DNA of 64,000 bases from Paracoccaceae bacterium. Its GTDB lineage: Bacteria > Pseudomonadota > Alphaproteobacteria > Rhodobacterales > Rhodobacteraceae. The notes under the pieces are model-generated. The model had not been told where the DNA came from. It saw only the letters and a program-made list of their open reading frames with translations, and did no database searches. Each line of letters opens with the position of its first letter. Within the stretch, counting starts at the first letter, position 1. Where the stretch lies: positions 1-64,000 of the forward strand of contig CACDPP010000007.1 of assembly GCA_902554705.1 (NCBI GenBank), in the 5' to 3' direction. The position numbers were made by a program, and so were the translations under genes. Below, one piece after another: positions 10,941 to 16,263 of this stretch.

Positions 10941-11963
10941 ATGCCCGCCTTAAATGAACCGAAGTTAATATCTGGAAACGCAAACAAAAATTTAGCAAAA
11001 GCGATTACACGGCGCATGACTGTCCATCGGGGGCTTAATGTCGATTTAGTTGATGCTCGAATTGAAAGATTTAATGACCAGGAGATTTTTATAGAAGTTT
11101 ACGAAAATGTTCGTGGTGAGGACATGTTTATAATTCAGTCGACATCCAATCCCGCCAACGATAATCTTATGGAACTTCTCATTATGGCCGATGCTTTGCG
11201 TCGCTCATCGGCAAGCCGTATAACAGCCGTTATCCCTTACTTTGGCTATGCCAGGCAAGATCGTCGAACAAAGGCTAGAACCCCGATAAGCGCTAAACTT
11301 GTGGCTAATTTGTTAGTAGAAGCAGGGGTGGAAAGAGTTCTGACACTCGATCTTCATGCTACGCAAATACAAGGTTTTTTTGATATACCTGTCGACAATT
11401 TATATGCAGCACCGGTTTTCGCTCTGGATATTATTCACCAGTTTTCTGATAGACTTAACGATGTAATGGTTGTTTCGCCTGATGTTGGGGGAGTTGCTCG
11501 TGCAAGAGAATTAGCCAAGCGGATAAATGCCCCACTATCAATTGTTGATAAGCGAAGAGAAAGAGCTGGAGAAGTGGCCGAAATGACAATCATTGGTGAT
11601 GTCAAAGGCAAAAAATGTATTATTGTCGACGATATTTGCGATACGGCCGGCACACTTTGTAAAGCAGCCGAAGTGCTTATTGAGAATGGTGCAGCCGAAG
11701 TTCATTCTTACATCACCCATGGAGTACTATCTGGACCAGCTGTTGAACGAATTAGCAAGTCTGTGATGAAATCCTTAGTTATAACAGACTCAATTCAAGC
11801 CACAGATCCTATAGCAAAAGCTGCAAATATTAGAATAGTTCCAACAGCTCCAATATTTGCCCAAGCTATACTCAATATTTGGAATGGGACCTCTGTTTCA
11901 TCACTATTCGAAACTGAAACCTTGGAACCAATTTATGATGGTCAATTGCAGAGATTATTATAA
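10941..11963 (+). CDS. prs: Ribose-phosphate pyrophosphokinase
   Basis: It makes PRPP from ribose 5-phosphate and ATP for nucleotide, histidine and tryptophan synthesis. 340 residues, slightly longer than the 315-residue enteric enzyme, as usual in Rhodobacterales. The flexible-loop motif [17 protein letters not shown] is near residue 105 and the PRPP-binding loop [12 protein letters not shown] near 228. ATG start with GAGG about 11 bp upstream. It stands alone; the 210-bp upstream gap is AT-rich and shows no confident promoter match. The gene is cytosolic and essential in most bacteria. Confidence 0.97.
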
Positions 11964-11984
11964 CGAATTGTTATATTGAAAATA

Positions 11985-12122
11985 TTAGTCACTTAGATCT
12001 GAAATTTTTCGCTCTAAGCGAGCTATCCTCCTTTTCATAATATCATAATAATAGGCAGTTGTGAGCGCAAAAAGCAGCCAAATCCAGAACGGTGTAGAAA
12101 CCGAAAAACTTAATATTTCCAT
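11985..12122 (-). CDS. Small single-pass membrane protein behind amtB (45 aa)
   Basis: A 45-residue open frame starts at ATG 12122 with the strong purine site GGGGGATTAAAAAA just upstream and ends at TAA 11985-11987. The N-terminal 25 residues are hydrophobic and aromatic (PFWIWLLFALTTAYYY), giving one membrane helix. The tail is charged and helical (MKRRIARLERKISDLSD). It follows glnK and amtB on the same strand, separated by a hairpin. I do not recognise the family. The layout suggests a small modulator or anchor linked to ammonium uptake, but this is inference. The frame could be a chance one, though the ribosome site and clean topology argue against that. Confidence 0.55.
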   Translation of the reverse strand: MEILSFSVSTPFWIWLLFALTTAYYYDIMKRRIARLERKISDLSD

Positions 12123-12149
12123 TTTTTTAATCCCCCGTAAAATTCATAT

Positions 12150-12176
12150 GCAGAGGCCTTTTATTAAGGCCTCTGC
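12150..12176 (-). terminator. Perfect hairpin between amtB and the 45-aa gene
   Basis: GCAGAGGCCTT (12150-12160) and AAGGCCTCTGC (12166-12176) form a perfect 11-bp stem with a 5-base loop. It starts about 27 bp after the amtB stop. On the minus strand no clean U-run follows, so it may stop transcription partly, or stabilise the upstream mRNA, rather than act as a full terminator. Confidence 0.65.
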
Positions 12177-12202
12177 TATTCATATTCGACAACCTGTGAA
12201 TT

Positions 12203-13538
12203 TTATCCCTTATAAAACTCAGGATACGCTTCCATCCCAAGCTCAGACACATCCAATCCAGAGATTTCTTCTTCTTCACCCACACGGATACCCATCGCAG
12301 ATTTTAGTATAGTCCACGTGATGCCTGCAGTGACACAAACAAACACACCTACAATAACTATTGATATAAATTGTGTTACATATGATGCATCAGAATTAGT
12401 TGCGGGCACAACCATTGTTCCCCAAATTCCTGCAAATAGGTGAACTGGAATCGCACCCACCACGTCATCAATTTTAAACTTGTCTAACATAGGAACAGTA
12501 AAGACTACTATCAACCCACCAACAGCACCAATCAAAGTTGCCGCTCCCAAAGTAGGTGTTAAAGGCTCCGCTGTTATTGACACCAATCCAGCCAATGCAC
12601 CGTTTAATATCATTGTTAAGTCAGGTTTTTTGTAGAGAAACTGGGTTAGTAACAAGGCAGCTATAGCGCCACCGGCAGCTGCAGCATTGGTATTGGAAAA
12701 TATCCTTGAAATATCAGCTACGTCGCCAACTGAACCCATTGCTAATTGAGAACCCCCGTTGAACCCAAACCAACCCATCCAAAGAATAAAAGTCCCTAGT
12801 GTTGCCAATGCTAAATTCGATCCAGGGATTGGGACAACTTTACCGTCCTTAGCATACTTTCCAATACGAGGACCAAGTATTATTGCCCCCATCAAAGCGG
12901 CCCATCCACCGACGGAATGTACAACCGTTGAACCTGCAAAGTCGAGGAAGCCCATGCCATCTAAAAATCCTCCGCCCCATTTCCAGCTGGCCTGAATAGG
13001 GTAGATTAAAGCTGTAAGAATGATTGTGAAGATTAAAAAGGGCCAAAGCTTAATTCTCTCCGCTAAAGCTCCAGACACTATCGACGCCGTAGCAGCACAA
13101 AACATGAGTTGAAAAAAGAAATCAGAACCTGTTGACGCATAACCATAATCATCTGCGCCATCCGCAGTTACTCCAACGGCTTCTAAAACGGCAACACCCC
13201 ATATACCCGATATTACGCCATCATACATCCAATCACCGAGAGGATACATCAAGTTGTAGCCAATCAAGTAGTAAAACACTGCAGCTAAGGAAAATAGACC
13301 CATATTCTTGGTCAGCTGCATTGTGACATTCTTTGAGCGAACTAAACCAGCTTCTAGCATAGAAAAGCCAGCTGCCATCCAAAAAACAAGAAACCCACCC
13401 ACTAAAAACAGCAAACTATTTAAAATGAATACTGAATCTGTTGGAACTAATGCTGGCGCGTCTTGTGCAATTGATTGCGATGCAACCGTAGCAATTAGAG
13501 CGCTTACGCCAAATATTTTAAAAAATGATTTTTTTCAT
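12203..13538 (-). CDS. amtB: Ammonium transporter, signal peptide shifted out of frame
   Basis: This inner-membrane channel imports ammonium/ammonia. The uninterrupted frame begins at 13414 (TTG) and gives 403 residues with the SMLEAGLVRSKN signature and both pore His (STVVHSVGGW and GAIPVHLFAG). That frame lacks a proper start. The ATG at 13538 has AGAGG upstream, but seven A bases (13529-13535 on the plus strand as T) put it out of frame. With six, a typical signal peptide (MKKSFFKIFG then ...SIAQDAPAL) joins the frame and gives 444 residues. It lies 16 bp behind glnK, as in the usual nitrogen operon. Identity is sure; the indel is either an assembly error or a real mutation. Confidence 0.93.
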
Positions 13539-13554
13539 CGAAGACTTACCTCTT

Positions 13555-13893
13555 TTATACTGCGTCAGCGCCGGTCTCACCGGTACGCACGCGAATGGTT
13601 TGTTGGACATCAAGGACAAATATTTTTCCATCACCGATCTTTCCGGTGTGCGCAGATAATTTTATCGTCTCGACGACTTGATCCGTCATCGATTGTTCAA
13701 CAACAATTTCTAGTTTAATTTTTGGAACAAAATTAACGGCGTATTCAGCGCCTCGATAGATTTCAGTATGACCCGACTGAGAACCAAAGCCTTTGATTTC
13801 AGTAACCATCATACCTTTAACACCCAAACCTGTTAACGCCTCTCGAACGTCTTCCAGCTTGAATGGCTTGATAGTAGCTATGATTAAATTCAT
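13555..13893 (-). CDS. glnK: Nitrogen regulatory P-II protein
   Basis: A 112-residue P-II trimer subunit that senses 2-oxoglutarate, ATP/ADP and glutamine and plugs AmtB when nitrogen is ample. The T-loop Tyr (residue 51, in GAEYAVNF) is present for uridylylation. The C-terminal signature GKIGDGKIFV is near residue 85. The start at ATG 13893 matches the family (MNLIIATIKPF) with AAAGG upstream; a longer in-frame extension to 14004 is not family-like. glnK versus glnB is decided by its place before amtB. A palindrome resembling an NtrC site lies about 105 bp upstream. Confidence 0.95.
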   Translation of the reverse strand: MNLIIATIKPFKLEDVREALTGLGVKGMMVTEIKGFGSQSGHTEIYRGAEYAVNFVPKIKLEIVVEQSMTDQVVETIKLSAHTGKIGDGKIFVLDVQQTIRVRTGETGADAV

Positions 13894-13997
13894 TTGTTTT
13901 GCCTTTCGCAAGTTCGCTAATGCCATATGAAGAAAATTCATTTCTCCGCAAATGCGAAGATTCTGAAATAAAAAAAATCCAATAAATTGACTGTTTG

Positions 13998-14014
13998 TGC
14001 GCATTTTTTGCGCA
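13998..14014. promoter_or_regulatory. NtrC-like binding site upstream of glnK-amtB
   Basis: TGCGCATTTTTTGCGCA is a 17-bp near-perfect palindrome made of two TGCGCA boxes. It fits the TGC-N11-GCA outline of NtrC operators. It lies about 105 bp upstream of the glnK start, in the gap shared with the divergent penicillin-binding-protein gene. No correctly spaced sigma-54 element is seen nearby; in Rhodobacter, NtrC is known to act with sigma-70. Role is inferred. Confidence 0.55.
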
Positions 14015-14121
14015 TTTATTTAATTTTGATTAAAATTTAATCTATTACTCAATTGAAAAAGGTTCTGTTTTCACTCAACACATGAACAAAATGACTATAG
14101 AAAGGAGGAAAAGAGCGTAAA

Positions 14122-16263
14122 ATGGCAGGCATCAAGAAAAAAAATAGGTATCGCAATTCTTTGATTGCCGAGAACCGTTTTAAAAAAGAACCCATAAAGT
14201 TATCGCAGAAAAAAAATATAAAGAAAAAAAAATCAAACCGCTCCGTAAGTTTAATTCCAAGCTTTTTAATTCGGCTTCTGCGAAAAATCAGCTTCTTCAT
14301 TTTAAAAGTAATGTGGGGGATTTTTTGGCGGACCAGCTTGATAGTAATCCTAGGTATGTCGATAGCGGTAAGCTATTATTACATAGGCCTAAAAGAATTT
14401 GACAGTCTTTTGGACGAACGCTCTCGTGGATCTGTGACACTTGAAAATAATACGGGAGATTTTTTTGCCTGGAGAGGTGATAATTTTTCTGAAAACCTTA
14501 CCGCAAATAATATCTCACCACATTTAAAAAATGCAGTACTAGCGACCGAAGACAGAAGATTTTACGCACACTTCGGTATAAGTCCCAGGGGTATAGCAAG
14601 CGCAGTATACATAAACTTAAAAGAAGGACGCGGCCCGCTGTCCGGTCATGGCGGGTCAACGATAACCCAGCAAACTGCAAAATTAGTCTGCCTAGGCAAT
14701 ACGTTCAGACAATCTGAATGGAAAAGCGAACAAGCCTTTGAAGCCAGCTGCCGAAAATCAACTGTTTGGAGAAAACTCAAAGAAGCTTTTTATGCTCTTT
14801 CATTAGAATTCAAATTTTCAAAAGATGAAATTCTTACAATTTATATCAACCGTGTATTTTTGGGCGCTGGAGCACGCGGTTTTGAAGCCGCTGCTCAAAG
14901 ATATTTCGCAAAATCCGCCAAGGAAGTAAACCCATCAGAATCTGCAATGTTGGCTGGCTTATTAAAAGCACCCACGCGTTACGCCCCGACTAATAATTTA
15001 AAACGAGCCCAAGAAAGGGCTAACTTAATAATAGGCTTGATGGAAAGCCAGAAGTTTTTGAGCACAAGCGAAGCAAAATTTGCTCGGAAACATCCTGCGG
15101 TTTTGTCAAAAATTGCTCAATCAAGGACCGGTGGGTATTTTGCTGATTGGGTGATGGCTAGCCTACCCAAATATCTCACATATGAAACAACAGAAGATGT
15201 AATAATTACAACTACCTTTGACCCAATTATACAAAATGCTGCTGAGAAGGCTGTTAGAAGTGTCTTTACAAATCAAGTTAACAAGCACTCTAAAGCACAA
15301 GCTGCTGTAATTATCATGTCTCCAAATGGTGCTGTAAGGGCAATGGTTGGCGGTAGAGAAGAAAGTGGAACCGGTCTATTTAATCGAGCAACGCAGGCAT
15401 TAAGGCAGACTGGATCTTCTTTCAAACCAATTGTTTATGCTGCCGCTTTAGAAATGGGCTATTCTCCAAATGATCTTGTCAATGACGAACAAATGACAAT
15501 TAATTTGCAAGGGTCAAATTCTTGGACACCGAAAAATTATTCAAAAGCTTTTAGCGGAGAAGTTACATTAACCAAGGCATTTTCCGAGTCGCTGAACATT
15601 CCAGCAGTAAAAATTTCCGAAGCTGTTGGACGAACAAGTGTTTCAGAACTAGGAAAAAAGTTTGGATTACATTCGGATCCAACTAATGGACCAGCAATTG
15701 CACTTGGCACTTCTGAGGCCACTCTTCTAAATTTAGTTGGAGCGTACGCAACTATTTTAAATCACGGTACTAGGGTCGAACCATTCGGTTGGGAAAAGTT
15801 ACAACTAAAAAAGAATAAAAATGAGATCCTTATGGCTAAATCAGAAAGGCCCAATATGAGAGTAGTCAACCCAGAAACCGCTCAGGATTTAATTTTTATG
15901 ATGTCAGAAGTGACAAAAAATGGAACGGGGAAAAGAGCTAAATTTCCTGATTGGGAAATAGCTGGAAAAACTGGCACATCACAATCTGCACGTGATGCCT
16001 GGTTTATAGGATTCTCAAAGTATTATGTTGCAGGTGTCTGGATAGGCTATGATGATAACACACCACTTCAAGGAGTTACCGGAGGAGGATTACCCGCTGA
16101 TATTTGGCGCACTATTATGGAGGAAATTCACTCAGACCTAACACCAACACCACTCCTGTCAAATAAGCAAAATTGGAATTCAGGTAAAAATATAAGCAAC
16201 GTGGTAGGTGAGCCTTCTTCGTTAACAACAATACTTGGAAAATTTTTTAATAAACTTTTTTGA
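14122..16263 (+). CDS. Bifunctional penicillin-binding protein (PBP1A type)
   Basis: A class A penicillin-binding protein that polymerises and cross-links peptidoglycan. 713 residues: a very basic cytoplasmic N-terminus (about 1-60, Lys-rich), one membrane anchor (about 61-88), a GT51 glycosyltransferase domain with the catalytic Glu in ATEDRRFYAH (E143) and GGSTITQQ, and a transpeptidase domain with S432-S-F-K435, S490-L-N492 and K616-T-G. It is shorter than E. coli PBP1A and lacks a C-terminal extension. Start ATG with AAAGGAGG 13 bases upstream. It is divergent from glnK and converges on mlaC. An A9 run in its N-terminus stays in frame. Confidence 0.93.
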   Translation: MAGIKKKNRYRNSLIAENRFKKEPIKLSQKKNIKKKKSNRSVSLIPSFLIRLLRKISFFILKVMWGIFWRTSLIVILGMSIAVSYYYIGLKEFDSLLDERSRGSVTLENNTGDFFAWRGDNFSENLTANNISPHLKNAVLATEDRRFYAHFGISPRGIASAVYINLKEGRGPLSGHGGSTITQQTAKLVCLGNTFRQSEWKSEQAFEASCRKSTVWRKLKEAFYALSLEFKFSKDEILTIYINRVFLGAGARGFEAAAQRYFAKSAKEVNPSESAMLAGLLKAPTRYAPTNNLKRAQERANLIIGLMESQKFLSTSEAKFARKHPAVLSKIAQSRTGGYFADWVMASLPKYLTYETTEDVIITTTFDPIIQNAAEKAVRSVFTNQVNKHSKAQAAVIIMSPNGAVRAMVGGREESGTGLFNRATQALRQTGSSFKPIVYAAALEMGYSPNDLVNDEQMTINLQGSNSWTPKNYSKAFSGEVTLTKAFSESLNIPAVKISEAVGRTSVSELGKKFGLHSDPTNGPAIALGTSEATLLNLVGAYATILNHGTRVEPFGWEKLQLKKNKNEILMAKSERPNMRVVNPETAQDLIFMMSEVTKNGTGKRAKFPDWEIAGKTGTSQSARDAWFIGFSKYYVAGVWIGYDDNTPLQGVTGGGLPADIWRTIMEEIHSDLTPTPLLSNKQNWNSGKNISNVVGEPSSLTTILGKFFNKLF

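Follow-up and report, generated by a model that had tools for sequence, protein, structure and literature searches.

Judged by its codon pattern, a short frame directly behind glnK-amtB in a Paracoccaceae bacterium is a genuine gene, i.e., a conserved coding frame under strong purifying selection. A close paralog borders the genes for photosynthesis; the two are here termed A and B. The gene and its link to the paralog rest on strong sequence evidence. From this we infer a shared target and a dual control: with a probability of roughly 40%, A and B are single-pass accessory peptides acting on one common membrane target, A under control of nitrogen, B under control of light and oxygen.

The window, i.e., the whole stretch of DNA analysed, comprises 64,000 nucleotides of contig CACDPP010000007.1. 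The genome from which it derives (1.85 Mb, 79 contigs) is 69% complete. The relevant features of the window are:

10941..11963, plus strand: prs, ribose-phosphate pyrophosphokinase gene; convergent with ORF A, 21 bases between the stops
11985..12122, minus strand, stop codon included: ORF A, gene of a 45-aa predicted single-pass membrane protein; frame conserved in seven genomes, pN/pS 0.09
12132..12136, minus strand: GGGGG run 9 nt 5' of the ORF A ATG, probably its ribosome binding site; read directly
12150..12176, minus strand: perfect 11-bp hairpin between the amtB stop and ORF A; read directly, covarying
12203..13531, minus strand: amtB, ammonium transporter gene, in-frame part; PF00909, E 3.7e-98
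13555..13893, minus strand: glnK, P-II regulator gene; P-II match, E 1.2e-27
13998..14014, no strand assigned: TGCGCA-AAAAA-TGCGCA, perfect palindrome of 17 bp ahead of glnK; candidate NtrC site

ORF A starts with ATG, has 45 codons and, according to the ORF list of the window, encodes MEILSFSVSTPFWIWLLFALTTAYYYDIMKRRIARLERKISDLSD. The original prediction had placed a 45-aa frame with a strong ribosome site behind glnK-amtB, and both are found there, the site being G-rich; the start of paralog B is likewise preceded by a GGGGG run. ORF A is most likely co-transcribed as the last gene of glnK-amtB-orfA. The palindrome ahead of glnK, possibly an NtrC-like site, is perfect, among the genomes read, in that of the window only; in the relatives read its left arm is kept and its right arm is weaker. 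At 13530-13540 (minus strand) amtB has no in-frame ATG: unlike in the relatives, the ATG expected as its start is not in frame with the remainder of the gene. The likely cause is an indel introduced by the assembly within a stretch of A.

The coding test used the first 44 codons and, as a control, 300 shuffles of the alignment columns. For ORF A pN/pS is 0.090 (seven sequences, 21 pairs) against a shuffled mean of 0.733, none of the 300 shuffles being as low, and the variable columns are distributed over the three codon positions as 13/5/28. These values include the TTG start of copy A in genome G011, which was scored as a non-synonymous difference, and only the first 44 codons of copy A in G009, which is nine residues longer. 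The results for B are alike: pN/pS is 0.096 (six sequences, 15 pairs, the copies of G001 and G005 being nearly the same sequence), the shuffled mean 0.747, none of 300 shuffles is as low, and the variable columns divide 8/4/27. Relatives thus keep the frame downstream of amtB with the codon bias on which the original prediction had staked its case. A chance frame, or a by-product of a conserved RNA, might be suspected because the ORF is short and adjoins a conserved hairpin, yet the codon pattern, with its changes biased to third positions, and the preservation of the same protein at two separate loci rule this out for all practical purposes.

As predicted, the product is a small protein with a single helix. 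The best 19-residue Kyte-Doolittle mean, 1.65, is located at residues 3-21, and AlphaFold2 models one helix from residue 3 to 44 (mean pLDDT 82.2, pTM 0.42). By the positive-inside rule the basic side of a membrane protein faces inside; the basic tail therefore suggests that the C-terminus is inside. An alignment of 13 A and B sequences has 28 invariant columns out of 45, including all of 10-20 and 22-27, i.e., nearly the entire helix and the first residues of the tail. A and B show consistent differences at positions 31, 34, 40, and 41. In the tail, I33-L36-I40-L43 fit a short heptad-like pattern. Amphipathicity of the tail is modest. Its hydrophobic moment is moderately elevated; as high a value arises in 186 of 5000 shuffles of the window protein and in 363 of 5000 when a composite B peptide is shuffled.

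Family searches returned no assignment. The best Pfam match of the window protein (E 0.11) is below the cut-off. NCBIfam gave no significant match (best 0.078, 3 of the 13 A/B members), PHROG no clear family (best 0.032, 4 of 13 members), and PADLOC matches for none of the 13. Six PDB chains appeared at E<=10, with 5-azacytidine-induced protein 2 as the best (0.057). The haem-exporter peptide CcmD is similar in size and also has one helix followed by a basic helical tail. It was rejected: PF04995 is absent among the Pfam matches of the window protein at E<=1, hhalign aligned 17 columns of the tail at a probability of 7.8% and a single-pair E of 0.0045, and the genus has its own CcmD elsewhere, above cut-off in 12 of 16 genomes. 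A phage or plasmid origin was discarded as well; 50 viral-contig stretches matched a pattern and none was confirmed, and no match was obtained on plasmids. Among the papers listed by literature searches none concerns the A/B protein; the passages of PMC11837527 deal with the ecology of MED-G52 and not with the ORF A gene.

The distribution is narrow. A protein search of 61 genomes yielded some match at E<=10 in 16. Strong matches (E 5e-20 or better) were limited to eight genomes, all from the same genus and including that of the window; five of the eight contain two copies. Sixteen genomes of this genus were searched, and AmtB identity splits them. Subclade 1 has 90-100% identity (G000, G001, G002, G007, G009, and G011, the latter with a partial amtB at 96%), subclade 2 has 79-83% (G003, G006, G008, G010, G012, G013, and G014). 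Wherever the locus is assembled in subclade 1 (7 of 7), copy A directly follows amtB and is flanked by prs on the other side; the seven loci are those of the six genomes grouped by AmtB and that of G015, the contig of which keeps only the last part of amtB. In subclade 2 amtB and prs are present, ORF A occupies none of the seven gaps, and no strong match to A or B was detected anywhere in these seven genomes. Copy B is found at all six assembled crtC ends in subclade 1 (G001, G005, G007, G009, G011, and G015) and at none of five in subclade 2. Five genomes possess both A and B. G005 (58% complete) lacks both A and a match to amtB; its placement in subclade 1 relies on the B copy and a partial crtC (83%). 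G004 (73% complete) has neither A nor B and no matches to amtB or crtC, and it is uninformative for the counts. Its bchZ is 96% identical to that of G007, as close as in other subclade-1 genomes; this bchZ starts 4.8 kb from the contig end, a shorter distance than that separating bchZ from B in G007, so the contig says nothing about B. The genome of the window and G002, which has bchZ, lack a crtC match and hence are outside the B count.

The spacer between amtB and ORF A harbors the second element of the original prediction, a perfect 11-bp hairpin. It is present and covaries in relatives. Its sequence is GCAGAGGCCTT-AATAA-AAGGCCTCTGC (12176-12150, minus strand). The seven spacers (71-80 bases) were aligned with a 9-bp core helix. 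All 63 cells of this core are paired in the seven genomes, and 4 of the 9 pairs have changed on both sides; none of 500 shuffles attained as high a covariation score. In the number of additional pair types the alignment does not exceed the shuffles (323/500). A run of four to six T follows several bases past the hairpin in each of the seven spacers, longest in G007. Probably, the hairpin is a leaky terminator, an attenuator or a stabiliser of the mRNA 3'-end. In subclade 2 the gap between amtB and prs is about 100 bases long and contains a terminator-like hairpin (seven genomes), with a clear T-rich tail in most and a weak one in G008 and G003. Since a terminator-like hairpin occupies the same spot in the sister species, the predicted role of the hairpin in setting ORF A expression is plausible. 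Within one genus, then, the spacer behind amtB came to lead into an extra gene. An Rfam search of window positions 11000-14500 produced only an lncRNA match below the cut-off.

Paralog B is 77-82% identical to the window protein, and residues 10-20 are invariant. Gene B and crtC converge at the border of the photosynthesis gene cluster. From B onwards, the cluster of G007 reads crtC, crtD, a polyprenyl synthetase gene (crtE-like), an O-methyltransferase gene (crtF-like), bchC, bchX, bchY, and bchZ; the places of bchC and B were confirmed in loci L024 and L026. The crtC of G007 has no Pfam match at E<=0.001; it scores above the cut-off of NCBIfam NF045922 and shares 53% identity with annotated carotenoid 1,2-hydratases. 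The 3' side of crtC differs between the subclades, with B in one and two other frames in the other (L062-L065 vs. L066-L069 and L071). We take these two frames of subclade 2 to be tspO and crtB. No amtB is among the B neighbors read.

These data bear on the assumption of the original prediction that the peptide is a partner of AmtB or GlnK specifically. In such a model it would bind the AmtB trimer or GlnK and thereby adjust the uptake of ammonium. The unfailing position directly behind amtB in subclade 1 speaks for it. However, the same helix recurs at the photosynthesis cluster away from amtB, and the sister subclade, despite an AmtB of 79-83% identity, has no such gene among its sequences. 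The existence of so close a paralog among photosynthesis genes weakens the assumption, and we consider it unlikely. Because its near-twin sits beside bacterial photosynthesis genes, the peptide probably has a broader role in the membrane and does not merely assist the ammonium channel. The GlnK-AmtB pair shares its gene neighborhood with ORF A; it differs in that the third small gene is missing in the sister subclade even though AmtB is close. In the GlnK-AmtB literature found, titles and abstracts contain no such third gene.

The region upstream of B contains promoter- and operator-like motifs. A TATAAT-like box is located shortly 5' of the ribosome site, clearest in four of the six genomes. 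Further upstream is TGACA-N8-TGACA in five and TGTCA-N8-TGACA in one. Put differently, TGT-N12-ACA is perfect in one of six B promoters, and five have TGA-N12-ACA, one base off the consensus. PMC4452267 gives TGT-N12-ACA as the PpsR site; of the two sites at the crtI promoter to which PpsR binds in Rubrivivax gelatinosus, one is TGa-N12-ACA. In the cluster stretches of G007, G001, and G015 (15-20 kb) the longer form TGWCA-N8-TGWCA exists only before B and before bchC, where it is tandem; 0.055 to 0.075 are expected per stretch, as estimated from mononucleotide shuffles only. Thus, the B promoter carries a putative PpsR-type operator. Like genes of the PpsR/CrtJ regulon, B has TGT/TGA-N12-ACA 5' of its promoter, as does bchC in the same cluster. 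Unlike them, the protein resembles no pigment enzyme, and the motif is absent from all seven spacers between amtB and the start of ORF A.

With this in mind, B could be the original copy and a photosystem peptide, i.e., a small helix of the reaction centre, of the light-harvesting complex or of the assembly of pigment enzymes, and A a copy which adds nitrogen control to the assembly of pigment membranes. The neighbors crtC, crtD, the crtE- and crtF-like genes and bchC, X, Y, and Z agree with such a role, as do the PpsR-type operator and a helix rich in aromatic residues. Yet the sister subclade keeps crtC, next to the tspO- and crtB-like frames, without B; B is therefore not a generally required part of the photosystem. 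Further, the best photosystem match among solved chains, the photosystem I 4.8K protein, has an E-value of 1.4, and the place of A is left unexplained. We regard a photosystem peptide as a doubtful explanation.

B has a candidate companion which is detailed here for locus L023:

L023 8424-8592, plus strand: candidate structured RNA upstream of B that has its own promoter-like boxes; same place in five other genomes

The candidate is about 165 bases long, and in G007 its terminal hairpin ends approximately 126 bases before the start codon of B. A core of 79 bases is identical in all six genomes. In the predicted wider fold 2 of 85 pairs show a kept change on both sides; the stems display little covariation because the sequence hardly varies. 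TGT-N12-ACA at its promoter is conserved in six of six. This counts for little since 4.7 to 6.4 plain TGT-N12-ACA sites are expected per cluster stretch and 5 are seen. A DNA search of the 16 genomes of the genus gave strong matches in the six genomes with B only, and a covariance model (E<=0.1, stricter filters) recovered these six, with no match in the remaining 95 of the 101 genomes. No Rfam family passes; the best is frnS with 22.7 bits at a cut-off of 60. Among 295 genomes two matched at the DNA level, G007 and G276 (E 4e-4). The latter match lies in a short stretch between unrelated genes and was taken as chance.

Such an RNA evokes type I toxin-like peptides, checked by antisense or trans-acting RNA, which here would be the structured RNA at B or read-through from prs over A. 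Size, the single helix, two copies and a narrow distribution are in line with a toxin, as is the co-occurrence of the RNA candidate with B. Duplexes of the candidate with the mRNA start, however, were no better than shuffles, 34 of 200 being as good for B of G007 and 110 of 200 for the window's copy A. Strong ribosome sites, the place in an operon, a pN/pS of about 0.09 and retention in every assembled locus also contradict a toxin, which we deem very unlikely.

This leads back to accessory peptides with a common membrane target as the preferred reading. The ORF A product would be a 45-residue single-pass protein of the inner membrane with the N-terminus outside and the basic C-terminus inside, and the heptad-like tail would self-associate. 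Read-through past the hairpin would cause a share of amtB transcripts to make the peptide, too. By its helix the peptide would dock on a larger membrane protein, which need not be AmtB, and tune its stability or activity. A and B would bind the same partner and confer the same activity, so that two signals, nitrogen status via A and light/oxygen via B, would converge. The partner is most likely the same because nearly all helix residues are invariant between A and B, and divergence is greater in the tails. Common origin alone could account for the shared helix, though many silent changes separate the copies: 892 synonymous and 568 non-synonymous differences were summed over 42 A-B pairs.

Small single-pass peptides near transporters or oxidases include KdpF, AcrZ, MgtS, and CydX. 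Like A, they have about 30-50 residues and one helix, and their genes lie within or close to an operon for a larger membrane protein; their roles are accessory or regulatory, as proposed for A. The differences are that the window protein has no significant match to a Pfam model and the 13 A/B members none to an NCBIfam model, and that A and B exist as two paralogs in two unrelated settings. A and B thus represent a codon-supported small-protein gene family of marine photoheterotrophs which none of the libraries used covers. One helix at an ammonium-transport operon as well as at a photosynthesis cluster is a testable hint of a shared nitrogen/light target. A bolder, rather improbable version is that a two-copy microprotein family, in our searches confined to one lineage of marine photoheterotrophs, links a single membrane target to the supply of ammonium and to signals of light and oxygen. 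The nitrogen state would be reported by the amtB copy, and the cluster copy with its companion small RNA would report light and oxygen via PpsR. If true, this would be a new coupling of nitrogen to phototrophy through membrane peptides.

Wider searches concur with the distribution in the genus. A profile search of 394 genomes of the family gave matches at E<=1 in 132, strong ones only in the genome of the window and in G007 of the same genus (E ~3e-32). The other 130 start at E 2.5e-3, are partial stretches among the matches listed, and are probably chance. A scan with two peptide patterns matched 40 stretches; 14 were confirmed, corresponding to 13 loci. The matching named records are mostly Rhodobacteraceae genomes, including the isolate MED-G52; the genus of the window is probably the one that bears this name. 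Contig CALIMD010000198.1 (L038), which was left out of the A/B counts, carries a copy of B; the adjacent crtC- and crtD-like frames closely resemble those of G007. Lastly, on the minus strand of L023 (7761-8200) frames of 75 aa and 67 aa are situated between an aminotransferase gene and B. The second is membrane-like and has no Pfam match at E<=0.001. Frames resembling this pair are present in the other subclade-1 loci listed.
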